Shown: positions 2-34,234 of the stretch, piece by piece | Layout of the letters: every line of letters starts with the position of its first letter | Numbering within the stretch: the stretch's first letter is position 1 | Assembly (NCBI GenBank): GCA_013298995.1 | Contig: JAAFJW010000016.1 | Location: forward strand, 1-34,234 | DNA from: Sphingobacteriales bacterium | Lineage (GTDB): Bacteria; Bacteroidota; Bacteroidia; Sphingobacteriales; Sphingobacteriaceae | Direction of reading: 5' to 3' | DNA length: 34,234 nucleotides | The notes under the pieces: generated by a model | The model's database searches: none | Seen by the model: the letters and a program-made list of their open reading frames with translations, nothing else | What the model was told of the DNA's origin: nothing | Made by a program: the position numbers and the translations under genes

Positions 2-2473
2 CTACGCATTAACGTAGAATTTGAGTACTCGGATAAGGTATTTGCCCGAAGTTTGGTTTTTGCAAACCAAAATTTTGAAAGCAAAAAACTAAAAATTGGT
101 TTTAACTACTATAACGAACAAGATAATCCCAACCAACCTTTTTTACAAACACTTACCGACCCTCAAAAAGATTTTTTAAAAACCATAGGAAATAACATTA
201 ACCAAGCCTTTTATAGCAATGCCACCGAAGTAGCATTTAACCGAAACGAAGTACTATACCGCCTGGTAGATACTTTAAATACAAGTATTTATGTATATAG
301 TGCCGATTCGTTAAAGGCAAAATACAGGCTCGGTTTTACCCTGCTAGGTAGCGGAAAAGGAAACTACAAACTTAAAACCAATGCTACTGCCAATGGTAGG
401 GTATTCGAATATGTGCCACCTATAAACGGCATAATGCAAGGCGATTACGAGCCTATTACACTTTTGGTAACACCCAAAAAACAGCAATTAATAACCCTAA
501 ACACAAATTATAAACTAGGCAAACGCACCACCATATTTACCGAAACAGGCTTTAGTAACAACGATGTAAACCTGTTTTCGCCCATTGGCAACACACAAAA
601 TAAAGGCCTAGCCTATAAAATTATAGCCAACCACGCCCACCTTATTAACGGTAACGATAGCACAGGCCTACAACTAAAAAGCCAAATAGCTTACGAATAT
701 GTAAACAAGCAATTTAAACCGCTTGAAAGGTACCGGGCCGTAGAGTTCGACCGTGATTTTAACCTTACCGGGATAAACAATACCGCCGCAGGAAACGAAA
801 ACTGGCTAAGCGCACAACTACAATTGTACAAATCGCCTTTAAAACAAATGCTTTACCGCATCAATAAATTTGACAGGCAAAATGTTTATACAGGGTTTCA
901 ACACGCCCTTAATGCCAATTACGAAATAAAAAGCCACCAAATAGCCTACACTGCTAGCTTGCTAAACTCTCACAACAACCTTAACCAACAAGGTAGTTTT
1001 TTACGCCAATACCTTAAATACCTTAAAAAATTTAAAGGCCTCGAAACTGGCTTTAACTTCGAGCAAGAACAAAACAAAACCAAAGATATAGCTAGCAACA
1101 TATACAGCCTACAAAGTTTTGCTTACCGCCAATACCAATTGGTGTTACAAAATGCGGCTACATCTAAAAATAAATTTTCATTTACATACACCACAAGGTT
1201 AGATGATTTGCCTTTCGGCGATGACTTAAAAGCGTTTAGCAAAGGCAATATTTATAGCGCTAGGGCGGAGTTTAATAAAAACCCCAATTCGCAATTATCC
1301 TTTAACACATCGTACCGAACCGTAAGCTATACCCAAAAAGATAGCCTAAAAAGCGATGAAAAAACCCTGCTAGGCCGTGTTGATTATAATTTTAAAGCCT
1401 TACGGGGATTTATCATCCTCAATACTTTTTACGAATTAGGCACCGGGCAAGAGCCCAAGCGAGAGTTTACCTACCTAGAAGTGCCCGCTGGCCAAGGCAT
1501 ATACGCTTGGAACGATTATAACCAAAATGGCATTAAAGAACTAAACGAATTTGAAATATCACGCTTTACCGACCAAGCAAAATATATCCGAATATTTAGA
1601 ACCACCAATCAATTTATACGCTCCAATTTTACCGCTATTAACCAAAACCTAGCCCTAAACCTCGCATCGTTATTTAAAACAAAGCAAAGCAATTTTTATA
1701 CCTTCATCAAAAAAATAAGTACCATAACCGCTTTACGTATTGATAAAAAACTATTATTAGGTAACGATGGTGTAGCGGCTTTTAACCCTTACCAAACCAA
1801 TGTTAACAACGATAAACTATTGGCATACAACCAGTTTTTTAGAAATACGCTGTTTTTCGACCGCATAAACCCCATATTTGGTATTGATATAAATTACCAA
1901 CAAACAGCCAGCCGTATATTATTAACCAACGGTTTTGATAGCCGCAAGCGCAGCGAAAACAGCCTACGCCTGCGCTGGAACTTTGTACAAAAAGCCAATT
2001 TTATGGTAGAAATAAAGCAAGGGAACAAACTTTATTTATCCGAACTTTTTGGTGCCAATAACTATGTAGTTAAATTTTACGAAACCCAGCCCGAGTTTAG
2101 TTACCAGTTTACCACCGATTTTAAAACCATACTTTCGGGCGCATTAAGCCAGCAAAAAAACGCTCCCCAGTACGGTGCCGAAAGCACTTTAAACTTTAGG
2201 CTTAGCACCGAGGTAAAATATAATTTACTTAAAAAAGGCGTGTTTTCGGCCCGTGTAAATAGTATTAACAACAGGTTTAAGGGTAAAAACAATACCGCCG
2301 TAGCTTACGAATTATTAGATGGCCTGCAACCTGGCAATAACCTTACGTGGAGTGTAGGTTTCCAGCGCACCATATCCAACGGCATACAGCTAAACCTAAG
2401 CTACGAAGGCCGCAAAGCCGCCGATGTACGTACCATACACACAGGAGGTATGCAGGTAAGGGCGTTTTTTTAG
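2..2473 (+). CDS. Putative outer-membrane beta-barrel protein, 5' end outside window
   Basis: The frame is open to the left edge: codons from base 2 read LRINVEFEYSDKVFARSLVF before the first possible start (TTG at 53), so the N-terminus is missing. The 820 or so visible residues show alternating polar/hydrophobic strands rich in Asn, Tyr, Phe and Lys, and end in RAFF; a terminal aromatic is typical of outer-membrane barrels. About 60% along is the stretch EVPAGQGIYAWNDYNQNGIK, whose DYNQNGIKELNEFE resembles a Ca-binding loop (DxNxNGxxExxE). I recall similar stretches in large uncharacterised Bacteroidota proteins of more than 1000 residues, but no function. The barrel assignment is inference from composition and the C-terminus. 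It is convergent with the minus-strand surface-protein genes that follow. Confidence 0.6.
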   Translation, partial: LRINVEFEYSDKVFARSLVFANQNFESKKLKIGFNYYNEQDNPNQPFLQTLTDPQKDFLKTIGNNINQAFYSNATEVAFNRNEVLYRLVDTLNTSIYVYSADSLKAKYRLGFTLLGSGKGNYKLKTNATANGRVFEYVPPINGIMQGDYEPITLLVTPKKQQLITLNTNYKLGKRTTIFTETGFSNNDVNLFSPIGNTQNKGLAYKIIANHAHLINGNDSTGLQLKSQIAYEYVNKQFKPLERYRAVEFDRDFNLTGINNTAAGNENWLSAQLQLYKSPLKQMLYRINKFDRQNVYTGFQHALNANYEIKSHQIAYTASLLNSHNNLNQQGSFLRQYLKYLKKFKGLETGFNFEQEQNKTKDIASNIYSLQSFAYRQYQLVLQNAATSKNKFSFTYTTRLDDLPFGDDLKAFSKGNIYSARAEFNKNPNSQLSFNTSYRTVSYTQKDSLKSDEKTLLGRVDYNFKALRGFIILNTFYELGTGQEPKREFTYLEVPAGQGIYAWNDYNQNGIKELNEFEISRFTDQAKYIRIFRTTNQFIRSNFTAINQNLALNLASLFKTKQSNFYTFIKKISTITALRIDKKLLLGNDGVAAFNPYQTNVNNDKLLAYNQFFRNTLFFDRINPIFGIDINYQQTASRILLTNGFDSRKRSENSLRLRWNFVQKANFMVEIKQGNKLYLSELFGANNYVVKFYETQPEFSYQFTTDFKTILSGALSQQKNAPQYGAESTLNFRLSTEVKYNLLKKGVFSARVNSINNRFKGKNNTAVAYELLDGLQPGNNLTWSVGFQRTISNGIQLNLSYEGRKAADVRTIHTGGMQVRAFF

Positions 2474-2908: not shown

Positions 2909-3382
2909 TTAGTTTTTAGTAAATTTACTTATACCAATTGTGTTTTTAGTTTTGTGATTTTTAAGCTTAAGAAAATAAGCTCCTGAGCGGGCATCGCTAA
3001 ATGGTGTTTTAAAATTTTGGGTATTTATGTTTTTAAATGATTTTACTAGCCTGCCGTTTAAGTCAAAAATATCTATATCAACTGGTTGTGTAGTTTCCCA
3101 GGTTGCATTAATTTCATTTTTAACAGGGTTCGGAAAAATCATTAACTCCTTGTTAATGCTCAAACCAAATTTTACAGAAACTATATCACTGTAACTAATA
3201 GATCCATTTATATCTACTTTTTTAAGTCGGTAATATCTAATGCCATTTAAAGGCTCGGTATCCAAAAAGCTGTATGTTAATAATTTATTAGAGTTGCCGT
3301 TTATAGCCTGTGTATTTATAGATTTAAAAACCTTTTGGTTATTTGAGCTTTCAACAACAATTTTTGAATGCTGATTTTTTAA
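2909..3382 (-). pseudogene. Detached T9SS type A C-terminal sorting domain (frame-shifted 3' part of the preceding gene)
   Basis: This frame opens just after a stop at 3383-3385 and overlaps the end of the 1008-residue frame. It reads KNQHSKIVVESSNNQKVF and continues through YSFLDTEPLNGIRYYRLKKVD, the module that usually precedes a T9SS domain. It then has the sorting domain itself: IFPNPVKNEINATWE, IDIFDLNGRLVKSF and SGAYFLKLKN, ending KFTKN. It has no ATG in a plausible position and no promoter. Removing one A from the A6 run at 3375-3380 joins the two frames as GQGFLVKNQHSKIVVE. It is therefore most likely the 3' end of the upstream gene, separated by a real frameshift, a larger deletion or a sequencing error. 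Confidence 0.75.
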
Positions 3383-6377
3383 CTAAAAAACCTTGCCCTG
3401 GTGCTATTAATCTAATATCAGTTAAAGAGGATGTTGCACTACCATTTACTTTAGTATAATTATTGTTTACACCATTACTGGTAGATGCAAAGCCCGAACG
3501 ATTTGGCCTTGTAATAATTAATTGGTTGGCTAAGGATGTATTATCAAGTATAAATTTGCTAAAATCTAAAGTTGAAGGGTATGGGTTTCCTATCAAATTA
3601 TAGCCATCAAACGAAGTGTTTACGGCATCAACTGTGTGGGTTGCATTTATGGTTACATCGCCCGAGTTTATTGTACCAACATAAGTAGCTGTCCAATTTT
3701 CGGGGTCTGCGTAGTTATTAGTAACAATATCTCTGTTTACTTTATTGGTATAATTATCTCTGTTTCCTCTGAAAAAAAAGAAATATCCTTTTCCTTTTGT
3801 TGTTAAATCGTTTATGTTGTTAAGTACCGGATAATTATTAGTTGATGAAAATGCAACAGGCTCGTTGTAAGTCATAAACGTTGTAGCATAAGGTACTTTA
3901 ACTCCGCCAGCATCCATGCCAACCCCAGCAGTTGGGCCACCTGTAACAATAAACCTTTTTTGTATTTGTTTGAAAATATTATCAGTACCAGCAACATCTA
4001 CAACAGGAAAAGATACCATGCGCATACCTCGGTTTACGTTGCTTAAGCCCCCTTTAAAAAAAGATTGCACTACCACATTTCCTAAAATTTGAACATCGGT
4101 ACCTAATGCCAAAATGCTTGATGTGGTATTTTGGGTTGATAGCATTACTAAATTACCGTTACTTTCTAAAATGCCTTGTGTAGGTATTAAATGGGTATTT
4201 ATTTGCATTTGGTTTCCCAAAATAACCCTACCCATAGTAGTAACTAAGCCTATGGTTGTTGTACCACGGTTTAAGGTAAAGTTTCTTACATTATTGGTTG
4301 TGCCAGGTGCTAATGGGATAAAATCGGTATTGCCTGTACCTGTACTTTTACCTGGTATGCTTTGGTCGAAAAATAAAGTAACTACTGAGCCACTTCCCGT
4401 TACAATTAAATCAGACAAACCATTAGCCTGCAAGCAATTAATGGCCGAACAAACCATATCACGCTGTAGCGTAAAACTATTGCTACCTATGGCAAGTATC
4501 CCATTTGTAAGCGTACAAAAATTAGTTACCACACTAGCCCCCATGGTTACTATGCTACCAAGTCGGTTTACAGTTAATTGCGCTAATAAATTTGTGGTAT
4601 TAGGAGTGGTATTATCCATAAAAAAAGTACAACTTGCTGCAACTGCACCATATGTACCAAATATTAAGGTGGCTGTACTACTGCCTACAATGGCGTTGCT
4701 GCTGCTGGTTGTAACACCACCATTTAGCGAAAGGCTATGAGTAGCAATTCTAAATTTCCCATTTTTAAGCCAAAAAGTACCATTAACATTTATGTTGTGC
4801 AATGCACTAATTCCGTTCGAATTATCAATAGTTAAATTATTGTAATCTTGCGCATTAGAAATTTGCTGTACCAGTACCCCATTGCCATTGTACACCACTG
4901 TTGAGCCATTTACACCCATTGCCAATGTGCCTATATTGGGCGATGTTGCACCCGCTATTGTTAAGGTATTATTACCCGACGAAGCCGAAGTAATGTTTAA
5001 AGTACCCGAAACTATTGCCCCAGTTGCTGTAATGGTAAGTGTTACACCTGGCAAACCAGCCTCGCCCAATTGGAAAGTAGTATTTGCACCTAAAGTTAAA
5101 GTTGTAGGTAACGATTGCGAGTTGGTTAAAATAAATTTAAAGCCATCGCCAGTAAAAGAAGTTGGTATAGTACCCGAGCCATCAGCGTTTATTCCCCAAT
5201 TTGCTAAAACGGTTAAATCAGTTTGCGCTGGTTTAAAATAAAAAGTTTTAAAAATGGTAATGTTTGCCAATACCGCAGTTCGTGGGCTTTCGCAACCTAC
5301 AGTCTGGCTAGCATAATAGGTATTGCCATCAACCAAAGCGGTACTGCTACTTAGTGGGCTACCACCCGAAGCTGCTGCATACCATTTTATACCTGTTCCG
5401 CTTGTGGTTGTTAAATCAGCTACAGTTGCACTATTAAAAAAAGATTGTGGGCTATTTGCAACTGGAGCTACAGGAGGTGCATTTACGGTTACATCAATTT
5501 CTAGTTTTTCACTTTCACAACCATTTATTGTTTGTGTTACATAATAGGTTCTTGTAGTTAATACTGTTGTAATGGGTAAAGGGAAACCCTCATAGTTATT
5601 GTAATAGGTTATATCACTACCTGTTACCACAATATTTGCAAATGTAGCTCCATTACAAAAATTTTGTGGCGAAGTTGCCACAGGTTGGGCTGTTCCAATA
5701 TTTACCTCAACTGGTAAGCGGGGGCCTTCGCAAGTACCAATAGTTTGCGATACGTAAAAAGTTTTTGTTTCAAAAAAATAATCAAATAAGCTAGCATCAA
5801 TAGCGGTACCACCAGTTGGTTCTGTGTACCATTTAATATCTGTACCAGTAGCTAACAATTCGGTAATAAAAAAACCATCACAAAAATTTTGAGGGCTAGG
5901 CGCAACAGGTGCTGGCGTTGTACAAAAAGAACTAAAACCTGCCCACACAGCTGTACCACTGTATAATGCACTTGTACCTAAAGGCACAAACAAGGGTATT
6001 GCCGAAATAGTAACACCGTTAAACACATTGACATTAATAGCTAAAGGAGTTGCCCAATTTACAACTACTGCCGCCAAACCTGTACAATTTGAAAACGCAT
6101 TGGCGCCTATACTCGTTATTGAACTGGGTATAACTACTGATTGTAAACCTGTACAACCATCAAAAGCAGAAGCACTAATATGTGTTACCGTGTAATTAAC
6201 ACTATTAAACAAAACACTAGACTTAATTGCAGCATAGCCTAAAAAACCAGGGTTTGTACTTACTTCGGCCGTAGTTGGGCTAGTTATGGTGTATTTAATG
6301 CCACCCGAAGTAAAAGTTTGTGCAAATAATGTACCCGAGGCAAATAATGCAAGTGCAAACAGTAGTATTTTTTTCAT
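3351..6377 (-). CDS. Secreted BspA-LRR/Ig-like T9SS protein, sorting domain lost by frameshift
   Basis: 1008 residues from ATG. A signal peptide (MKKILLFALALFASGTLFAQ) is followed by a short BspA-type leucine-rich block (about 60-150, e.g. SSITSIGANAFSNCTGL). Three Ig-like modules follow (about 155-370), each with PQNFC or PQSF, a WYT/WYA or YYN core, and a YYVSQT/GCES-type end. Residues 375-860 are Thr/Gly/Asn-rich beta-strand sequence of the kind seen in Bacteroidota adhesins. Near 925 comes GYNLIGNPYPSTLDFSKF, then APGQGFLVKK. That motif is normally followed by more strands and a sorting domain, but here the frame stops after SAFKNCC. The sorting domain is present in another frame directly downstream. 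As written, the product could be exported across the inner membrane but would lack the T9SS signal. It shares LRR, Ig-like modules and promoter architecture with the 1303-residue gene upstream. Confidence 0.8.
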   Translation of the reverse strand: MKKILLFALALFASGTLFAQTFTSGGIKYTITSPTTAEVSTNPGFLGYAAIKSSVLFNSVNYTVTHISASAFDGCTGLQSVVIPSSITSIGANAFSNCTGLAAVVVNWATPLAINVNVFNGVTISAIPLFVPLGTSALYSGTAVWAGFSSFCTTPAPVAPSPQNFCDGFFITELLATGTDIKWYTEPTGGTAIDASLFDYFFETKTFYVSQTIGTCEGPRLPVEVNIGTAQPVATSPQNFCNGATFANIVVTGSDITYYNNYEGFPLPITTVLTTRTYYVTQTINGCESEKLEIDVTVNAPPVAPVANSPQSFFNSATVADLTTTSGTGIKWYAAASGGSPLSSSTALVDGNTYYASQTVGCESPRTAVLANITIFKTFYFKPAQTDLTVLANWGINADGSGTIPTSFTGDGFKFILTNSQSLPTTLTLGANTTFQLGEAGLPGVTLTITATGAIVSGTLNITSASSGNNTLTIAGATSPNIGTLAMGVNGSTVVYNGNGVLVQQISNAQDYNNLTIDNSNGISALHNINVNGTFWLKNGKFRIATHSLSLNGGVTTSSSNAIVGSSTATLIFGTYGAVAASCTFFMDNTTPNTTNLLAQLTVNRLGSIVTMGASVVTNFCTLTNGILAIGSNSFTLQRDMVCSAINCLQANGLSDLIVTGSGSVVTLFFDQSIPGKSTGTGNTDFIPLAPGTTNNVRNFTLNRGTTTIGLVTTMGRVILGNQMQINTHLIPTQGILESNGNLVMLSTQNTTSSILALGTDVQILGNVVVQSFFKGGLSNVNRGMRMVSFPVVDVAGTDNIFKQIQKRFIVTGGPTAGVGMDAGGVKVPYATTFMTYNEPVAFSSTNNYPVLNNINDLTTKGKGYFFFFRGNRDNYTNKVNRDIVTNNYADPENWTATYVGTINSGDVTINATHTVDAVNTSFDGYNLIGNPYPSTLDFSKFILDNTSLANQLIITRPNRSGFASTSNGVNNNYTKVNGSATSSLTDIRLIAPGQGFLVKKSAFKNCC

Positions 6378-6453: not shown

Positions 6454-6510
6454 CAAAATTAAAAGAAAGGGTATTAGTAAAAATAGGTAGGAGTACTCAT
6501 TTTTTTAGAC
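6454..6510 (-). promoter_or_regulatory. Promoter with shared activator-like element for the 1008-residue T9SS gene
   Basis: Read on the minus strand, the element AGTACTCCTACCTATTTTT (6479-6497) is followed after 17 nt by TAATTTTG (6454-6461), a perfect TAnnTTTG -7 box. No TTG lies at the -33 position, so the element probably substitutes for it, as at an activated promoter. The 32-bp block 6479-6510 matches 11301-11332 at 31 positions. The predicted 5' UTR is about 70 nt. The box and match are visible; activator binding is inference. Confidence 0.55.
6479..6497. repeat. 19-bp repeat aaaaataggtaggagtact, copy 1 (left of transposase)
   Basis: Identical copies lie at 7322-7340 and 11301-11319, and a diverged copy starts at 13866. 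Copies 1 and 2 bracket the transposase and its palindromes as direct repeats. The flanking bases differ on both sides (t/g before, c/a after), so the identity is exactly 19 bp. Confidence 0.85.
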
Positions 6511-6513
6511 TAT

Positions 6514-6542
6514 ACTTTCCAAGTTTTAAAAACTTGGAAAGT
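6514..6542. repeat. REP-like palindrome, upstream of transposase
   Basis: Perfect 14-bp arms (actttccaagtttt and its complement) around a single A. Outer AGACT/AGTCT segments (from 6507 and to 6550) extend it imperfectly. The core TTCCAAGTTT...AAACTTGGAA is shared with palindromes at 7233-7289 and 11337-11399. It lies 52 nt upstream of the transposase ATG, the position expected for a REP hairpin recognised by a RAYT enzyme. Confidence 0.85.
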
Positions 6543-6593
6543 CTAAGTCTAAAAAAAATAGGAAAATATAAAAATCTTCCCTATTTTCACGTT

Positions 6594-7235
6594 ATGAAAA
6601 ACGATTTTTATCCTGTATTAACAGCAAATAACTTTTACCATATTTATAATCGAGGCAACAACCGAGAAAATATATTTCATAAACCAGAAAACTATTTTTA
6701 TTTTCTTCGGAAGTATGATACTTACCTTTCACCTTTTTTAGAAACTTATGCCTATTGTTTGTTGCCTAATCATTTTCATTTATTAGTGCGGGTGCGTAAA
6801 GAAACAGAGGTGCTATTGGCAGCAAAAGCCCTAAATTTTACCAAACAGGGTAAGCCTATAACCGATGTTGATGTAATTATATCGGAAGCGTTTAGAAGAT
6901 TTTTTATGGCTTACGCAAAAGCTATAAATAAACAAAGCGGGCGCACAGGTAGTTTATTTCAGAAAAACTTTAAACGCAAATTAGTTGATAACGAAGCCTA
7001 TTTTACAACTTTAGTGCGTTATATACACATAAACCCGCCGCTACACGGTATTTGCGATGATTATGGCACATATTTATACAGTTCGTACCATAGAATATTG
7101 ATAGATAACCCCAGTAAACTATACAAAAAAGAGGTTTTGGCGTGGTTTAATGGTAAAAATGGGTATGTGCAGTTTCATAACACCAAATGGGCTGATGTAA
7201 CAAACAGTGAGTGTTACGAGATAGAGGATTATTAG
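6594..7235 (+). CDS. REP-associated tyrosine transposase (RAYT, Y1/IS200-like)
   Basis: 213 residues from the ATG at 6594. An upstream in-frame TTG (6534) would lie inside the palindrome, and the family normally begins near the FYHIYNRGNNRENIF stretch seen at 14-28. The HUH metal-binding motif is NHFHLLV (H60, H62) and the catalytic tyrosine is Y143 in LVRYIHINP, the expected order for the Y1 transposase superfamily. Such enzymes nick and rejoin single-stranded DNA at palindromic REP hairpins and are usually domesticated single-copy genes. Matching palindromes lie on both sides, and the TAG stop is the first triplet of the downstream one. It is on the opposite strand to both flanking T9SS genes and appears intact. 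Confidence 0.9.
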   Translation: MKNDFYPVLTANNFYHIYNRGNNRENIFHKPENYFYFLRKYDTYLSPFLETYAYCLLPNHFHLLVRVRKETEVLLAAKALNFTKQGKPITDVDVIISEAFRRFFMAYAKAINKQSGRTGSLFQKNFKRKLVDNEAYFTTLVRYIHINPPLHGICDDYGTYLYSSYHRILIDNPSKLYKKEVLAWFNGKNGYVQFHNTKWADVTNSECYEIEDY

Positions 7236-7289
7236 ACCAAGACTAGACTTTCCAAGTTTTTGAAACTTGGAAAGTCTAGTCTTGGTCTA
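7233..7289. repeat. Perfect 27-bp-arm REP-like palindrome overlapping the transposase stop
   Basis: The left arm (7233-7259) and right arm (7263-7289) are exact reverse complements around a TTG loop. The core TTCCAAGTTT is shared with the other two copies, with added AGACCAAGACTAG arms. The first three bases are the transposase stop codon. In RNA it would be a very stable hairpin and may also end transcription in both directions, although it lacks a clean T-tract. Confidence 0.9.
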
Positions 7290-7321
7290 GTTTATACAAA
7301 TAATGGTTTAGGTTCTTTTTG

Positions 7322-7340
7322 AAAAATAGGTAGGAGTACT
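7322..7340. repeat. 19-bp repeat aaaaataggtaggagtact, copy 2 (right of transposase)
   Basis: Exact copy of 6479-6497. It overlaps the stop codon (7339-7341) of the 1303-residue T9SS gene. Unlike the other copies, no TAnnTTTG box is found 17-18 bp from it on the minus strand (the sequence there reads TTATTTGT), so it is probably not an active promoter. Confidence 0.8.
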
Positions 7341-10300
7341 ATTTGCTAACTATTAGTTTTTTGGTATAGTTGCCGTTGGCTGTTTGTACTTGTATAATAT
7401 AAACACCAGTTGGCCAGTTTCTCGAATCAATAGCCGTTACTTTACTATCAGTTCTAATAACTTTCATTAGTTTTCCTTCAAGCGAAATAATAAAAATAGT
7501 AGCATCTTCATTATCTGTTGCTACATTAAATACATCGCTTGCAGGGTTAGGGTAAATAGCTACATTTTGTACTTTATTCTCGCTGTAATCTTTTACTAGC
7601 TTATCGCTATTGCCTACCACATTCATCCCGCCACTGCTTACCCCTACGCCTGTTAGGGCAAAAGTATAAGGGTTTTCGTTTAGGTCGTTGTTAGGAATAG
7701 TTACCGTACATGCACTTGTACCTAAAGTGCTAGGCGTGTACTTTATACTAAAGCCTGCCGTTCCGCCTGACTCTATGCTTGTACCTAGTGGTTTTGTTAA
7801 GGTATAATTAGGGTTCGAAAACGTAACTGTTCCTAGCGTTAAGCTGGCTGTGCCTGTATTACTTATGGTGTAACTTCTTGTAAAGCTGCTGCTTAGGTTT
7901 ACTGTGCCAAAATCGCAGCCTACTGTACCACTAGCTACGCTTGTACCGCTTACTATTTCGTTGTTACGCCCTTTTACTATTATTTCGGGGCTTACTCCTA
8001 CGCTTGTTAAGGCAAAAGTATAGGGATTTTCGTTGCTATCGTTGTTAGGAATAGTTACCGTACATGCACTTGTACCTAAAGTGCTAGGCGTGTACTTTAT
8101 ACTAAAGCCTGCCGTTCCGCCTGGCTCTATGCTTGTACCTAGTGGTTTTGTTAAGGTATAATTAGGGTTCGAAAACGTAACTGTTCCTAGCGTTAAGCTG
8201 GATGTGCCTGTATTGCTTATGGTGTAACTTCTTGTAAAGTTGCTGCTTAGGTTTACTGTGCCAAAATCGCAGCCTACTGTACCACTAGCTATGCTTGTAC
8301 CGCTTACTATTTCGTTGTTACGCCCTTTTACTATTATTTCGGGGCTTACTCCTACGCTTGTTAAGGCAAAAGTATAGGGATTTTCGTTTGCATCGTTACT
8401 TACAATTGATACCGTACAATTACTATTACCCAAACTAATAGGCGTAAATTTTATTTTAAATTCTGTAGTATCGTTAGGAACTAAAGTGTTAGCCGGAAAT
8501 TTCACCACAGTATAATTACTATTATTAAGCGTAATTTCCCCAATAGTTAAATTGCTAGTACCCGTATTATTAATTACATAGGTGCGTGTAAGGCTACTGC
8601 CTAATTTAAGGTTGCCAATATTAGTACCTGTAGTAATACTGGTAGTGGTTGTGCCACTTACTATTTCGCTACTACGCCCCGTAATAAATATTTCGGGATG
8701 AGTAATGCTTACGGTTACAGCTGTTCTGGCACTTTCGCAGTTAATAGTTTGGCTGGCATAATAAACATTGCCGTTTACCAAATTTGTAATGGCAGCCAAT
8801 GCACTACCACCTGTGGCAGTACTATACCATTTTATATTGCTTCCCGTAGCCACTAAGCTCGATACCCTTGCCAAACCTACAAAGGTTTGTGTGGCAGAAG
8901 CCGTTGGTGCTGATGGTATTGCATTAATTGTTAAATTTAATTTATCAGCAACACAATTTACAGTTGGTGTGGTGTAAACCCCAGATGTGGTATAAGTTTG
9001 ACCGTTGCTTGCCCAAGTATAACTGCCGCAAGCGGTGGTTGTGGTTTCGTTATAAGTAACCGTACTGCAATTTTCTATAATGTTAAAAAAGTTAGTCCAA
9101 ACAGGAGCAGCATCATAAGTAGCAACTTTATCTGGCGGCACAATAAGCGTAGCATTAGTATTGATACCAGTAAAAGCTCCTATAGAATTAATATTTAAAG
9201 GCGTTGCCCAGCTTACGGTAACCGAGGCTAAACTTGTACAATTACTAAAAGCACTGTCACCGATACTTGTTACTGAATTCGGGATTGTAATTGATGACAA
9301 ACTGTTACAACTGCTAAAAGCACCATCTCCAATACTTGTTATTGAGCTTGGTAGTGTAACTGATGTTAAACTTGTGCAATTATTAAAAGTATAAGCCACG
9401 ATGCTTGTAACAGAATTTGGAACTGTAACCGATAGTAAATTTGTACAATTATTAAAAGCATTGTAGCCAATACTCGTAACAGAATTGGGGATAGTAATTG
9501 ATGTCAAACCAGCACAATCAAAAAAGGCAGCATCTCCAATACTCGTAACCGTATAGGTGTTGCAAATGCTACTAACCGTTGCTGGTATTGTTATAGCTCC
9601 CGATGCTGTCGGCGTAACATCAACAGCAACAGTGTTTGTGCCAGTAACCACATAGTTAATGCCATTTACTGTAAAATTAGTTGGCGCGTTTAAGATGGTT
9701 AAATTTAATTTCTCTGTTACGCAATTGGTGGTTGTACCGGTGTAAGTGCCAGAAACCGTATAAGTTTGTCCGTTATTTGGCCAAGTATAGCTGCCACATT
9801 GAGTTACATTAGTTGTATTAACCGTTGCTGGAATAATATATATATCAGTGTACCTAGCTCGACAATATTCTTCATCATTGTAATCAAAAACATATGCAGA
9901 TTCTGTATATGTTTTGCCCTTATATGTATAACTACCGCAAGCAGTTATCTTATATGGTTCATCATCAAAAGGACTAAACGTCTTAATGGTCAACTCTAAT
10001 TTTTCGACAGCGCAATCATTAGAAAGATCGCTATAATAGATTCCTGATTCAGAGTAACGTTTACCTTTCCACTCATAAGAAGAACAAGCTGTTTTTGTAA
10101 AAAGATATTCGGTAATGGGTGTAATGGTTAAATCTAATTTCTCGGTTACGCAATTGGTGGTTGTACCAGTGTAAACGCCCGTTGTAGTATAGGTTTGGTT
10201 GTTATTTGCCCAAGTGTAACTGCCACAAGCGGAAATGGTAGTAACGTTGTCTGTACTTGGCGTAATGGTTACGGCTACTGCGGTTCTTGCACTTTCGCAT

Positions 10301-11250
10301 CCGTTTATGGTTTGCGAAACGTAATAAGTTGTTGTTGTTGTTAAAGCGTTTGATGTTGTTAATGCTGTTCCGCCAGTTGCGTTGGCATACCAAAGCAAGT
10401 TGGTTCCTGTGGCTGTTAAAGAAGCAATTGTAGCATTTCCGCAAAAGGTTTGCGTTGCAGCCGCAGTTGGTGCAACATTCAAAATATTGGTGCAAGATGT
10501 ATTAGAAACTACACCACCAGAAGCAACAAAGTTACTGCTTGTACCCGTTAAGTCAAAATTTGCTAATGAAGCATTGTTATTGAAACCGCTTGAGTCGGTT
10601 AAAGCACTAATTGTTGTATTGGACAATCCAGCAAGACCTTGATTGAAATGCAAATTCGTAATCAACCCGCAGGCAGTTGTTGGAATTTCGCAATTCATTC
10701 GGGCTACAATTTCGGTTTGTGTTAATGCTCTGTTCCAAACTCTAAATTCATCAAAAGCCCCTTTGAAAGGAAATACAGAAACCCCTCTTGAACCTAAAAG
10801 CAAAGGTGAGATATTGTTTATAACCGCTGAACTTAACGGATTTGCTCCAGCATTAGTTGTATTTAGATCTACACCATTAATATATATTTTCGCTAACGAA
10901 GTAGTAGGATTGTAAACGCAAGCCACATGAAACCAAGTATTTTCAGGCAAAGTGTTGGCATCGGTATCTATAAAAACGCCTGCTGTTGGTATAAAGCGAA
11001 TACTCTTGTTGGTTTTATTGAGATGAATTTCCATATTCTCATACCCTTTAGAGCAGACAAAAGGAACCACCACTGTAGAAGAAGCATCCCATTTGAGCCA
11101 AGTTTCTATCGTAAATTGATTAACATTAAAACTGCTGTTGTTTGCGATGGTTGCATAATCGTTGGTGCCATCAAAATCTAGGGCTGCACCTTGCTGGGCA
11201 AATACAGTGGTAGTGGTTAAAAACAAAAGGGCAAGTAGCAATTTTTTCAT
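7339..11250 (-). CDS. Modular secreted T9SS protein: LamG, Ig-like, BspA LRR, choice-of-anchor-D-like repeats, type A sorting domain
   Basis: 1303 residues from ATG. Order: signal peptide (1-18, ending VFAQ); LamG/concanavalin-like domain (about 20-190; [22 protein letters not shown]); Ig-like module (about 260-335; [18 protein letters not shown]); four Cys-paired ACGSYTW-like units (about 338-520) and a fifth near 740; BspA-type LRRs (about 530-690; repeated NSVTSIG.AF.NC); a second Ig-like module; three 118-residue units resembling choice-of-anchor-D/ASH domains (about 850-1205; [15 protein letters not shown]); and a T9SS type A domain ([15 protein letters not shown] to the terminal KKLIVSK). 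It is expected to be exported by Sec, then T9SS, and anchored or released at the surface, probably in adhesion. No catalytic motif was seen. Confidence 0.88.
7637..8344. repeat. Two near-identical 354-bp tandem repeats within the T9SS gene
   Basis: Units 7637-7990 and 7991-8344 are in register every 354 bp (118 codons). Their translations differ at only about six positions by my reading. A third, clearly diverged unit follows from 8345. Near identity at the DNA level indicates recent duplication or gene conversion, and repeat number may vary between strains. Confidence 0.85.
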
Positions 11251-11274
11251 AATTACAAATTATATTGGTTATCA

Positions 11275-11332
11275 CAAATTTAAAGCTGTAATGCTTACCA
11301 AAAAATAGGTAGGAGTACTTATTTTTTTAGAC
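11275..11332 (-). promoter_or_regulatory. Promoter with shared activator-like element for the 1303-residue T9SS gene
   Basis: On the minus strand AGTACTCCTACCTATTTTT (11301-11319) is followed after 18 nt by TAAATTTG (11275-11282), a perfect TAnnTTTG box, giving a UTR of about 20 nt. A TTG occurs only 16 nt before the box, which is short of the usual 19-21. The arrangement copies that at 6454-6510. Confidence 0.6.
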
Positions 11333-11336
11333 CAGA

Positions 11337-11399
11337 TTAGACTTTCCTTAGACTTTCCAAGTTTTTGAAACTTGGAAAGTCTAGGAAAGGAAAGTCTAA
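11337..11399. repeat. Compound REP-like palindrome between response regulator and T9SS gene
   Basis: Inner arms 11349-11364 and 11368-11383 (16 bp, loop TTG) carry the TTCCAAGTTT core. Outer arms 11337-11348 and 11388-11399 (12 bp) repeat the ttagactttcct part. It is joined to the 19-bp promoter element in the same order as copy 1. It may end response-regulator transcription on the minus strand. Confidence 0.82.
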
Positions 11400-11410
11400 G
11401 TCCACTAATC

Positions 11411-12037
11411 CTAAAAAAACCTACTATTTTTTACTGCAAAAGTTAGCAAACTATTGCTACCTGTTAGTTGCAGTTTTTTTGAAATATTATTTCGGTGGTT
11501 ATCAATAGTTTTTATACTTACAAACAAGGTATCGGCAATTGTTTTGCTTGTTTTATTTTGAGCTATATATTTTAATACCAAGCATTCGGTTTTGGTTAAA
11601 GTGGCTAAAATTTCGTTTTTATCTTCGGTTTGGTTTAAAATACTAGGGTCTGATAAATAAATATTATTTGTTAAAACATTTTTAATAGCGTTGGTTAATT
11701 CGTTTACAGCATCGTCTTTAAACACAAAACCATCAATACCTTTAGCAATAACCGATCGTATAATATCAGGTTCTTTATGCATGGTAAGTATAATCACTTT
11801 TAAGGCAAGTTTAATCAGTTTTAAGTTTTCGCTTAGTTTAATTCCATTTATTACTGGCATATCTAAATCTAATATGGCAATATCGGGGTTTATGATAGTA
11901 AAGTTTTTTAAAGCCTCTACCGATGATGTGTAAGCAAAAATTTTAGCTGTTTTTAATTCATCTTGCAGTATTTCTATCAATCCTTTCAAAAAGATAGGAT
12001 GGTCATCAACCACCATAATTGTTAATTTACTTTTCAT
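11411..12037 (-). CDS. NarL/FixJ-type response regulator (REC + LuxR HTH)
   Basis: 208 residues. The receiver domain (1-120) has the acidic pair D11/D12, phosphoacceptor D57 in ILDLDMP, T85 and K107, all intact. The C-terminal LuxR-type helix-turn-helix (about 143-205) reads LTKTECLVLKYIAQNKTSKT and then VSIKTIDNHRNNISKKL. It acts as a phosphorylation-controlled DNA-binding regulator. Its start codon lies inside the end of the histidine kinase gene (11-nt overlap, 12027-12037), a sign of translational coupling and of a cognate pair. A diverged copy of the promoter element found before the two T9SS genes lies upstream of this operon. It could be the protein that binds that element, which is inference. 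Confidence 0.93.
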   Translation of the reverse strand: MKSKLTIMVVDDHPIFLKGLIEILQDELKTAKIFAYTSSVEALKNFTIINPDIAILDLDMPVINGIKLSENLKLIKLALKVIILTMHKEPDIIRSVIAKGIDGFVFKDDAVNELTNAIKNVLTNNIYLSDPSILNQTEDKNEILATLTKTECLVLKYIAQNKTSKTIADTLFVSIKTIDNHRNNISKKLQLTGSNSLLTFAVKNSRFF

Positions 12038-13835
12038 TTTTAGTAGGAATTATAACCGTAATAGCTGTACCTTTATACAAGTAAGATTTAATAGTAATTG
12101 TGCCTTTTAAAATATTTACACGTTCTTTTATACCCGAAAGCCCGTTTCCTATGCCCGATGCAATTTTTAATTTAGTATCAAAGCCAATACCATTATCTTT
12201 AACATGTAGCTTAACTTGGCTATCCGTTTTTTCGATTACAACTGTGGCGTGGGTTGCTTTGGCATGTTTAAGCAAATTGTTAAGCAGTTCTTGCAGTATT
12301 CTATAAAAATTAATTTCAGTGTCTTTTGGCAAAATATCGTCAATACTTTCTTCAAAAATAGGCTTAATAATTACGCTGGTTGATTTTTGTATTTTATCAA
12401 TCATTAATTTAATTGATGCAGTAATGCCAATAGTATCCAAAGTGGAAGGCCTTAAATCTTGTGCAATGGCCCTAATTTCATCTAAGGTTTCGGATGTTAT
12501 AGCGGCTAATCCATTTAGTGCTTCGGTATGTGTGGGTAACATATCTTTTTTAAGTAGTAACAGTATGCGGTTTCTTATTACCAGTAAATTTTGCCCTATA
12601 CTATCGTGAAACTCATGTGCCATTCGTTTACGTTCGGTTTCTAGCGTAAATATTAACGATTGCGAATGCAAAGCCGAAGATGTTAAAAGCGATTGTTGAA
12701 GCCTCGATTTTTCTTTAATAATTAATTTTAAACGCTTAGCCAATGCAAAGGTTTGTATAAATATTTGAGGTAAAATCATAAAATATAATACATACTGTGT
12801 TATAAAACTTATAGGCAGTAAACCCGCAAAATAAAACTGTGCTATTGTGCCAAACACAATTAAAAATATAACCGAAGTAAGTTGGGTTAAAAAATATTGC
12901 TTTTCTTTTTTTTGGATGTATAATACGCAAGTTAAAAGTAAAAACGCCTCGGCTGTTAAGGTAATAAGGTTAAGTAAAATATAAATTTTAAATCCTACGG
13001 GATGCCAAAAAGAGATGGCCAGTTGTAATAATAAAACAACATTAATTAATTTAAAAAAATTGTTTAAAACAGTATCGTATTTTTTAATGTTTAAAAATTC
13101 CGAAATATAAAAATTGGTACTTATAAAGCTGGCTATAAAGCCTATTGCTACAAGTTCGTTGTTCCAATAAATAGAATTTGTGAAAATAAAAAGTTTTGTA
13201 AAACCATCAAAGCTAAAAATGATACTCCACCCAAATACGTTAAATGCTACAAAATATAAATATAATTTTTGCCCCGTACTTATAAAAAAAACTAAATTGA
13301 TAACAATAATAAAAAATATAATACCATATATTAAACCAGTAATTAATATAGGTTTTAATTTAACAACGTTGTAAATACGAGGGTAAATACTTAAAGGTAA
13401 AGCTATGGGTTGCCCATTACCAATAACTTGTAAATATAATATCGTTTTTTTTGAAGCTGCTGTTTTAAAATTAAAGTTTAAAAAACGCTCGGTGCTAGCA
13501 AAACCTTCACCTATATAGGTTTTTGTGTAAATATTTCCGTTCAAAATATAAACCGCAATGGAATCAGGTGTTATTGTGGCAATGTGTAATTTATAGTTTT
13601 GTAAAGGTGTTGCATTTGTAATTTCTATTTTTAACCAGTGTACATTATTGGTAATGCCAAAGTTTAAGGTATTGATATTGTTAACTTTAGTAAAATTATT
13701 AGTTTTTAAAACAGTTGCTAAGGTTATGTTTTTATTAGATGTTTCAAAACTATACACCTTAAAGCTAACACTTTGCTGATGCGAAAAAACCAACAGCGGA
13801 AATATAACAAGCCAAAACGAATATAAAAATCTCAT
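12027..13835 (-). CDS. 7TM-DISM sensor histidine kinase (HisKA_3/HATPase)
   Basis: 602 residues. A signal peptide (1-18) is followed by an extracytoplasmic DISMED2-like beta domain (about 22-150; NNVHWLKIEITN), then about seven membrane helices (about 160-375) of 7TM-DISM type. Next come a short coiled segment (KEKSRLQQSLL), a HisKA_3 dimerisation domain with H410 in MAHEFHDSIGQ, and an HATPase domain with N-box (ELLNNLLKHAKATHA), DNGIGFD and GNGLSGIKERV. The family senses extracellular ligands, often carbohydrate-like; the ligand here is unknown. It phosphorylates the overlapping downstream response regulator. All catalytic motifs are present. A -7-like box ends only about 5 nt before the ATG, so the mRNA may be leaderless or the true promoter lies further away. 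Confidence 0.93.
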   Translation of the reverse strand: MRFLYSFWLVIFPLLVFSHQQSVSFKVYSFETSNKNITLATVLKTNNFTKVNNINTLNFGITNNVHWLKIEITNATPLQNYKLHIATITPDSIAVYILNGNIYTKTYIGEGFASTERFLNFNFKTAASKKTILYLQVIGNGQPIALPLSIYPRIYNVVKLKPILITGLIYGIIFFIIVINLVFFISTGQKLYLYFVAFNVFGWSIIFSFDGFTKLFIFTNSIYWNNELVAIGFIASFISTNFYISEFLNIKKYDTVLNNFFKLINVVLLLQLAISFWHPVGFKIYILLNLITLTAEAFLLLTCVLYIQKKEKQYFLTQLTSVIFLIVFGTIAQFYFAGLLPISFITQYVLYFMILPQIFIQTFALAKRLKLIIKEKSRLQQSLLTSSALHSQSLIFTLETERKRMAHEFHDSIGQNLLVIRNRILLLLKKDMLPTHTEALNGLAAITSETLDEIRAIAQDLRPSTLDTIGITASIKLMIDKIQKSTSVIIKPIFEESIDDILPKDTEINFYRILQELLNNLLKHAKATHATVVIEKTDSQVKLHVKDNGIGFDTKLKIASGIGNGLSGIKERVNILKGTITIKSYLYKGTAITVIIPTKNEK

Positions 13836-13839
13836 TTTG

Positions 13840-13893
13840 TAAAAATAGGGTATAAGCAGGCTATTAAAAATAGGTACTGTTATTCATTTTTTA
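13840..13893 (-). promoter_or_regulatory. Candidate promoter of the histidine kinase/regulator operon with diverged shared element
   Basis: On the minus strand TGAATAACAGTACCTATTTTT (ending at 13866) matches the T9SS-gene element in 16 of 21 positions. It is followed after 18 nt by TATTTTTA (13840-13847), one base off TAnnTTTG. The same spacing as at 11275-11332 supports a common regulator and self-control. The box is very close to the ATG. Confidence 0.4.
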
Positions 13894-14222
13894 TAGAAAC
13901 GGGCATCCCGAAAAATTTTATCTAGCTTTTATTTATTTACGGATAGTACTTACAACTGGCTTTGCATTCATTGCGTTAATTTTTTATAAAAAAAAATCAA
14001 AAAACTAAGGCTAGCATTTTATTGCATTGGCTAGAGCCCCCACCACCTGCCTTTTTTTAACTTTAATAAGGGTGTTTTAATTCAAAAAAAATATAATCAA
14101 TAGATTTTGCTTTTATATTGAATAAAAAAAACAACATTATTGCACAAAATCATAAATTAACAATAAAATCTTACATAATTTCTATAAAAAAACAATATAA
14201 TTAAATTTTTACATGCTTTTAT
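13894..14222. other. AT-rich divergent intergenic region
   Basis: Between the kinase promoter and the ATP-grasp operon. It is mostly A/T runs, with a short GC-richer patch (about 14010-14055) and a minor cgggcatcccg inverted repeat near 13900. No open frame, RNA gene or strong hairpin was recognised. Confidence 0.5.
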
Positions 14223-33050: not shown

Positions 33051-34234
33051 TTACAAAGGTATCCACACGCTTATTACTGTGCCATGGCCAATGTGGCTAT
33101 CGAAATCAACGGTGCCTTTAAGGTAGGCTACACGGGTGCTTATATTTTTTAAGCCAATTCCTTCAAATTTTTCTAGTAAATTTTTATCAAATCCTATGCC
33201 ATTATCTTCGATGGTGGCGGTTACGCTTTCGCTATCTTTTACCAGTTGTATATCCAGTTGGCTGGCTTTGGCGTGTTTTATTACATTGTTTACGGTTTCT
33301 TGTAATACACGGTAAAGTACAATTTCGGTATTGTTATTTAGCCTATTATTTAGGCCAATGGTGTGTAGGTTTACTTGTAGGCTTTCTTTATCTATATTAT
33401 CAATAAAATCTTTTATGGCCGATGCCAAGCCCGATTTTAATAACACATTGGGCATCATTTGGTGCGATATGCTGCGTACTTCTTTGCAACTTTGGTCCAC
33501 TAGGGCTATGGTTTTTTGTGCCAATGCTTCGTCGTCGGTATTGGTAATTTCTAGCCTAGCTAATAAGCCCGATAGGTTCATTTTTACTACCGAAAACAGC
33601 TGTCCTACGCCATCGTGTAAATCGCCAGCTATGCGTTTGCGTTCTTTTTCTTCGGCTTCTAAAACGGCTTTGGTGGCTAGGTCTTGTTGTTTTATAATTT
33701 CGGTTTTTAACCTTGTTTCTTGCTTTAGTTTGTAGCGGTTGTAAAACAAAAATCCGAGTAAAATGGTGGTTAGTAATGCAGCCAAACTAAGTGCTAAATA
33801 GGTGTTACGCTTGGCTACGGTTAGTTTTTGAATTTTGTTTTCTTTGTTTAATAGGTTAATATTTTGTTGTTTTTTTTCGGTTTCGTATTTTATTTGCATT
33901 TCTGCGATTTCGGCGGTTAAACTTTTTTTGTAGATGGTATCTTTTAAATCAATTAATGCTTCGTTGTACAAAAATGCTTGCTTGTAATCGCCTTTTTTTC
34001 TGTAAACATTACTGATATTTATTAAAGCGTTTTCTAAATCTTCCATATTATTATTGGTTTTAGATAGGGCAATGCTTTGCTTATAATAATCAATTGCTTT
34101 TGTAAAATTTTCGGTTTCTTCGTTTATCTGCCCTAGGTTGGTTAAGCAACTTGCTTCGCCAAAGGCATTATGAATAGCCCGAAATTTAGCCATGCTTTTT
34201 GTAAGAAACAGCTCGGCTTTGGTATAATTTTTTA
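33051..34234 (-). CDS. TPR-containing HisKA_3 sensor histidine kinase, N-terminus outside window
   Basis: The frame continues upstream of the first internal ATG (34191-34193) to the right edge, reading KNYTKAELFLTKSMAKFR, so the 5' end is missing. The visible order is TPR repeats (NLGQINEETENFTKAIDYYK, INISNVYRKKGDYKQAFLYN), a coiled coil (AEIAEMQIKYETEKKQQNIN), one membrane helix (YLALSLAALLTTILLGFLFY), a second coil, the HisKA_3 site RIAGDLHDGVGQ, and the ATPase with N-box ETVNNVIKHAKAS, DNGIGFD and GIGLKNISTRV. This is the common Bacteroidota design of an exported TPR sensor with a cytoplasmic kinase. No cognate regulator follows within the window. Confidence 0.92.
   Translation of the reverse strand, partial: KNYTKAELFLTKSMAKFRAIHNAFGEASCLTNLGQINEETENFTKAIDYYKQSIALSKTNNNMEDLENALINISNVYRKKGDYKQAFLYNEALIDLKDTIYKKSLTAEIAEMQIKYETEKKQQNINLLNKENKIQKLTVAKRNTYLALSLAALLTTILLGFLFYNRYKLKQETRLKTEIIKQQDLATKAVLEAEEKERKRIAGDLHDGVGQLFSVVKMNLSGLLARLEITNTDDEALAQKTIALVDQSCKEVRSISHQMMPNVLLKSGLASAIKDFIDNIDKESLQVNLHTIGLNNRLNNNTEIVLYRVLQETVNNVIKHAKASQLDIQLVKDSESVTATIEDNGIGFDKNLLEKFEGIGLKNISTRVAYLKGTVDFDSHIGHGTVISVWIPL

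Follow-up and report, generated by a model that had tools for sequence, protein, structure and literature searches.

The stretch of DNA analysed here (the window, 34,234 nucleotides (nt); all coordinates are window positions) comes from a Sphingobacteriales genome of 2,778,228 bases in 211 contigs. On its minus strand lie, in the order of transcription, the genes for a 602 amino acid (aa) kinase, a 208-aa regulator and a 1303-aa surface protein, followed by a 1008-aa open reading frame (ORF). Our subject is a 19-letter element, AGTACTCCTACCTATTTTT, called E below, which stands before the last two of these and, in a diverged form, before the first. The kinase (12027-13835, minus strand) is a sensor histidine kinase with the Pfam domains 7TMR-DISMED2, 7TMR-DISM_7TM, HisKA_3 and HATPase_c, and its gene shares an 11-nt overlap with that of the NarL/FixJ-type response regulator (11411-12037, minus strand). 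The regulator is built of a receiver and a LuxR-type domain (Pfam matches at 5.7e-21 for Response_reg and 1.6e-14 for GerE), has EvgA, DevR, NarL and VraR among its relatives in the PDB and adjoins a partner kinase of the HisKA_3 type. The surface protein (7339-11250, minus strand) combines Laminin_G_3, Ig_7, BspA-type LRR_5 and HYDIN-type Ig domains with a sorting tail of the type IX secretion system (T9SS). The 1008-aa ORF (3351-6377, minus strand), with LRR_5 and Ig_7, appears to be what is left of the front of a broken surface-protein gene.

Exact copies of E are found in the promoters of the 1303-aa gene (11301-11319) and the 1008-aa gene (6479-6497), both on the minus strand. The first-pass annotation of this DNA had placed E before these two genes, and both copies are real, while a third was missed: an orphan at the end of the 1303-aa gene, overlapping its stop codon (7322-7340, minus strand). 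These are the only three exact copies in the whole genome, all within the window, all on the minus strand and all within 4.9 kb. When up to 3 mismatches were allowed, 100 dinucleotide shuffles of the window averaged 0.01 matches. At the same threshold the whole genome gave a single extra match (3 mismatches), inside a coding gene on contig C156 which we take to be ilvN-like. The diverged form in the kinase promoter, TGAATAACAGTACCTATTTTT (13866-13886, minus strand), is the same as E at 16 of 21 positions, as had been proposed, and is kept in the related genome G015. The probability of finding its core, TACCTATTTTT, within 100 nt upstream of the kinase by chance is about 4e-4. The distances from the regulator gene are 0.1 kb for the site at 11301, 1.8 kb for 13866, 4.1 kb for 7322 and 4.9 kb for 6479.

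At each of the three promoters E is followed at a fixed distance by a −7 box of the TAnnTTTG type. From the end of the T-run to the box there are 17 nt at the 1008-aa gene (TAATTTTG, 6454-6461) and 18 nt at the 1303-aa gene (TAAATTTG, 11275-11282), both boxes being exact, and 18 nt at the kinase gene (TATTTTTA, 13840-13847), where the box is one letter off. All three lie on the minus strand, and their spacings agreed with those reported before when we checked them. Exact TAnnTTTG occurs in the intergenic DNA of the window at a rate of 0.0014 per position, and at this rate the chance of finding two exact boxes at a distance of 17 or 18 nt is about 8e-6. The predicted transcription starts, which place the box at −12 to −5 as given for Flavobacterium psychrophilum in sections of PMC9723704, fall at about 6449 for the 1008-aa gene, about 11270 for the 1303-aa gene and 13835 for the kinase gene. 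The predicted leader of the 1303-aa gene is about 20 nt long, near the medians of 24 and 32 nt that appear in excerpts of PMC7366714 and PMC9723704. For the kinase gene the start is predicted at the first letter of its start codon, an A, and the kinase mRNA may be leaderless. Messages of this type are rare: in B. thetaiotaomicron about 3.7% of the 5' untranslated regions are shorter than 10 nt, and the examples include sensor kinases (excerpt of PMC7366714).

The primary-sigma promoter of Bacteroidota, as described in parts of PMC7366714 and PMC9723704, has TAnnTTTG at −7 and TTTG at −33. A putative −7 box of this kind is present here at each promoter, twice in the exact and once in a one-off form. 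Unlike in the usual promoter of this kind, the kinase mRNA is predicted to be leaderless and the place of the −33 TTTG is occupied by the TATTTTT of E. The earlier observation that a canonical TTG is missing or misplaced held, the sole TTG near this place standing in the 1303-aa promoter, 16 nt before the box. Since the excerpt of PMC7366714 gives no identifiable −33 motif for Flavobacterium johnsoniae, the missing TTG is unremarkable in itself and makes weak evidence. We also considered whether the −7 box might be the TATTTTT within E. At all four sites it differs from TAnnTTTG by one letter, the next letter being A, C, T and A and never G, and at one other genomic site (L157) it forms an exact box 23 nt before a gene. 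We judged this less likely because exact boxes stand 17 or 18 nt further on and no matching −33 TTG was seen by eye.

The combination of core, box and gene start is confined to the three promoters. Of the genomic sites of TACCTATTTTT, 14 of 24 lie within ORFs of at least 100 aa and 10 outside. When an ORF of 80 aa or more was counted as a gene, 5 of these 10 had a gene start within 250 nt downstream, and the 3 among them that also have a box at up to 1 mismatch are the three promoters already reported. At one further site (L145), which lies in an antisense ORF, a one-off box is present and no gene follows. Searched genome-wide, core and box meet a gene start only at the reported promoters, and one of the three exact copies of E has no gene.

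E holds two tandem perfect heptamers of the NarL consensus TACYYMT (as given in an excerpt of PMC4886647), TACTCCT and TACCTAT, 6 nt apart. Within the window, two heptamers on one strand within 19 nt occur only in the three E copies, and none of the 225,988 19-mers of other loci in the same genome contains such a pair. The two E copies before genes carry an extra inverted heptamer (ATRAGTA) that overlaps the first one; by eye, the orphan copy at 7322 has no inverted heptamer. Counted from the predicted starts, E spans −48 to −30 at the 1008-aa gene and −49 to −31 at the 1303-aa gene. Its first 15 letters are centred at about −41/−42, which is a usual site of class II activators. The domain pair of receiver and GerE, the two perfect heptamers and the position of the site are all like those of NarL/FixJ-type regulators at class II promoters. 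The arrangement differs from that of NarL, whose site is an inverted 7-2-7 heptamer pair, in that the heptamers are tandem and 6 nt apart.

On the sequence evidence we lean towards E being the operator of an activator-dependent promoter, with the adjacent NarL-type regulator as the probable activator. The promoters would be read by the primary sigma factor that recognizes TAnnTTTG. The kinase would sense an outside signal via its 7TMR-DISMED2 domain and phosphorylate the regulator, which would bind the tandem heptamers TACTCCT and TACCTAT near −41/−42 and touch RNA polymerase in place of the −33 box. Binding would raise transcription of both neighbouring surface genes. It would also raise that of the kinase-regulator operon, whose site has one heptamer and would be the weaker one. 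The first-pass annotation had named the adjacent regulator as the candidate, and E does contain the heptamer pair expected of a NarL-type protein, so that its binding is a plausible prediction. It had also proposed a self-controlled surface-protein regulon. The fixed spacing and the kept kinase promoter speak for this part, while the confinement to one locus, the apparently broken state of one presumed target and the orphan copy detract from it. E is a real promoter element private to this locus and most likely acts as the operator of the NarL-type regulator beside it; the regulon would be very small and local, and its kind is a known one.

The kinase promoter could be compared with that of G015, the sole relative found to have the kinase. 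From AATGAATAACAG to the ATG, 55 of 56 positions are identical in the two genomes. In the 60 alignment columns just upstream this holds for 35 of the 52 ungapped ones. The two kinase proteins are 94% identical. At strict cut-offs the kinase turned up in two of 18 genus genomes (E-values up to 1e-40) and in two of 399 sampled family genomes (E-values up to 1e-50), in both cases the own genome and G015; weaker relatives would fall below these cut-offs. A GTDB scan for the kinase returned one locus, on the contig of a Sphingobacteriales metagenome-assembled genome, which agrees with the G015 contig in length and identity.

Several observations weigh against E being an operator of the regulator. 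Upstream of the kinase there is a second stretch (13937-13989) conserved in G015, identical in 50 of its 53 ungapped columns, and the kinase and regulator genes are 93% identical between the two genomes at the DNA level, so the conservation of the promoter is less special and the 55 of 56 positions are modest evidence. The E copies before the surface genes have no counterpart to be compared in G015, because there the regulator is followed by a different gene on the opposite strand (from our reading of the contig end). The 1008-aa gene, one of the presumed targets, looks broken and lacks the T9SS tail, which is found in a separate downstream ORF in another frame. The TACYYMT consensus is that of E. 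coli and was tried after TACCTAT had been noticed in E, not blind. The kinase form keeps one heptamer only, which would suit a weaker self-control. The copy at 7322 precedes no gene, with no gene start within 250 nt, and its best −7 box at a spacing of 15-20 nt is wrong at 2 of 6 positions. Finally, the core TACCTATTTTT is not over-represented in the genome, with 24 sites against 34 for the reversed control. As a separate observation, AAGTACTATCCGTAA (13937-13951), inside the second conserved stretch, resembles E. Since similar letters recur further up in G015, we took it for a part of a dispersed repeat.

The scan of relatives covered 60 genomes, the own one and 59 relatives, and in the latter no copy was listed at up to 1 mismatch and four were listed at 2 mismatches (in G003, G007, G016 and G031). 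At up to 3 mismatches the 59 relatives gave 82 matches against 213 for the reversed control, and in the 399 sampled family genomes the core with the box gave 12 matches, in 11 genomes, against 23 for the reversed control. Both scans being below their controls, we rejected E as a general promoter class. A literature search with TACCTATTTTT returned unrelated papers only, and in narrow literature searches we found no operator described for a NarL-type regulator beside a 7TMR-DISM kinase and T9SS genes.

Motif evidence of this sort does not name the binding protein. E could be the real operator of another regulator that is encoded elsewhere, with the kinase-regulator operon merely one of its targets, and the genome has at least one further HisKA_3 kinase (33051-34193, minus strand; with TPR repeats, its front lost at the contig end). 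We regard this as unlikely. A regulator with targets elsewhere would leave E copies elsewhere, and none exist. Moreover, the sites lie 0.1-4.9 kb from a regulator gene whose type predicts heptamers like those of E.

Another alternative concerns the mobile DNA at the locus. A gene for a RAYT-like Y1 transposase of 213 aa (6594-7235, plus strand) lies between two E copies. Its protein matches the Pfam family Y1_Tnp at 1.0e-4, with 22.9 bits against a cut-off of 23, and has relatives of 36-49% identity in 14 of the 60 genomes, the own one included. One REP-like palindrome stands to the left of the gene, next to E at 6479 (6500-6556), another to its right, with 27-nt perfect arms (7231-7291), and one more between the regulator gene and E at 11301 (11330-11402). 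In G015 the regulator gene is followed by a related palindrome. The palindromes of the REPtron-like unit at 6500-7291 have a common core, CTTTCCAAGTTT...AAACTTGGAAAG, of which there are six exact copies in the genome. In having a Y1 transposase gene between similar palindromes that recur elsewhere in the genome, the unit resembles the REPtrons (RAYT/TnpA-REP of Bacteroidetes, perhaps subclass 2.6) described in the extract of PMC6006769. Unlike in that description, there are six exact palindromes only and two E copies flank the unit. When we read 18 other RAYT loci, like palindromes were present on both sides in 9 (7 clearly, 2 loosely), on one side in 3 and on neither in 6.

The two E copies form 19-nt direct repeats around the RAYT unit, and the copies at 6479 and 11301 lie in a common block, identical at 31 of 32 nt, that includes an A-rich run next to the palindrome. 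The third copy stands at a gene end. The RAYT/REP unit or local recombination might have multiplied E. The identical copies would then go back to a recent duplication, and two of them would fit their promoters by inheritance rather than by selection. We find this quite improbable. None of the 18 other RAYT loci, from the own and related genomes, has E nearby, the best matches having 5-7 mismatches in about 2.5-3.6 kb each; E as the end of a RAYT element is likewise unsupported. The other 3 of the 6 exact palindromes in the genome are without E, and no E was found in IMG/VR contigs. In the kinase promoter the core is present without any exact palindrome beside it. Furthermore, the downstream sequence differs between the two surface-gene promoters, yet box and spacing are kept, which points to selection on an operator. 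Local copying may still have helped to spread E. One version of events, a long shot in our estimation, is that a two-component system found in two of the searched genomes controls itself and newly arrived surface genes via one operator that the neighbouring RAYT/REP unit helped to spread between promoters. This would be a domesticated transposase rewiring a local regulon, with the copy at 7322 as a spare or a side product.

The first-pass annotation had put a contact with an alternative sigma factor on a par with an activator, and of the two we favour the activator. The fixed spacing to the −7 region would suit an alternative sigma factor, and sections of PMC9723704 describe such motifs at gliding and T9SS genes of F. 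psychrophilum, but this reading of E is very unlikely because TAATTTTG and TAAATTTG fit the primary-sigma consensus; more than three promoters would also be expected, and the family-wide search for core and box stayed below its control (12 against 23).

If the regulator does bind E, the locus would offer, for Bacteroidota, a compact set of sensor, regulator, operator and surface targets, and it would exemplify a regulon with only three promoters at one locus. The general picture of gene regulation is unchanged by this finding.

The surface genes themselves were described at first as two T9SS genes. This is correct for the 1303-aa gene, which has the tail, and not for the 1008-aa ORF, in whose reading frame no C-terminal sorting domain is found. 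A 118-aa ORF with a T9SS sorting tail (2909-3265, minus strand) is out of frame with it. Eight relatives have open frames of 1194-1737 aa, and in every one of them the two pieces match a single frame. About 217 residues that separate the pieces in the relatives (counted in L103) are absent from the window, where the frame changes and the tail follows. The break may reflect a decayed gene or an assembly fault. In the genome-wide search no E was found at the surface paralogues of the own genome on contigs C49, C166, C164, C150 and C2; C49 and C166 end before the gene starts, so that the promoters of these two fall outside the contigs. At seven surface-paralogue and G015 loci (L044, L069-L074) the best match to E has 4 mismatches and lies in a coding ORF (L044), and the others have at least 5. 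At the left end of the window, an 823-aa ORF (2-2473, plus strand) has no Pfam match up to E = 1. Within the 1303-aa gene we observed tandem repeats with a period of 354 nt (7636-8289), two copies of which are 96% identical over 300 nt, and this suggests room for variation in repeat number in the surface protein.

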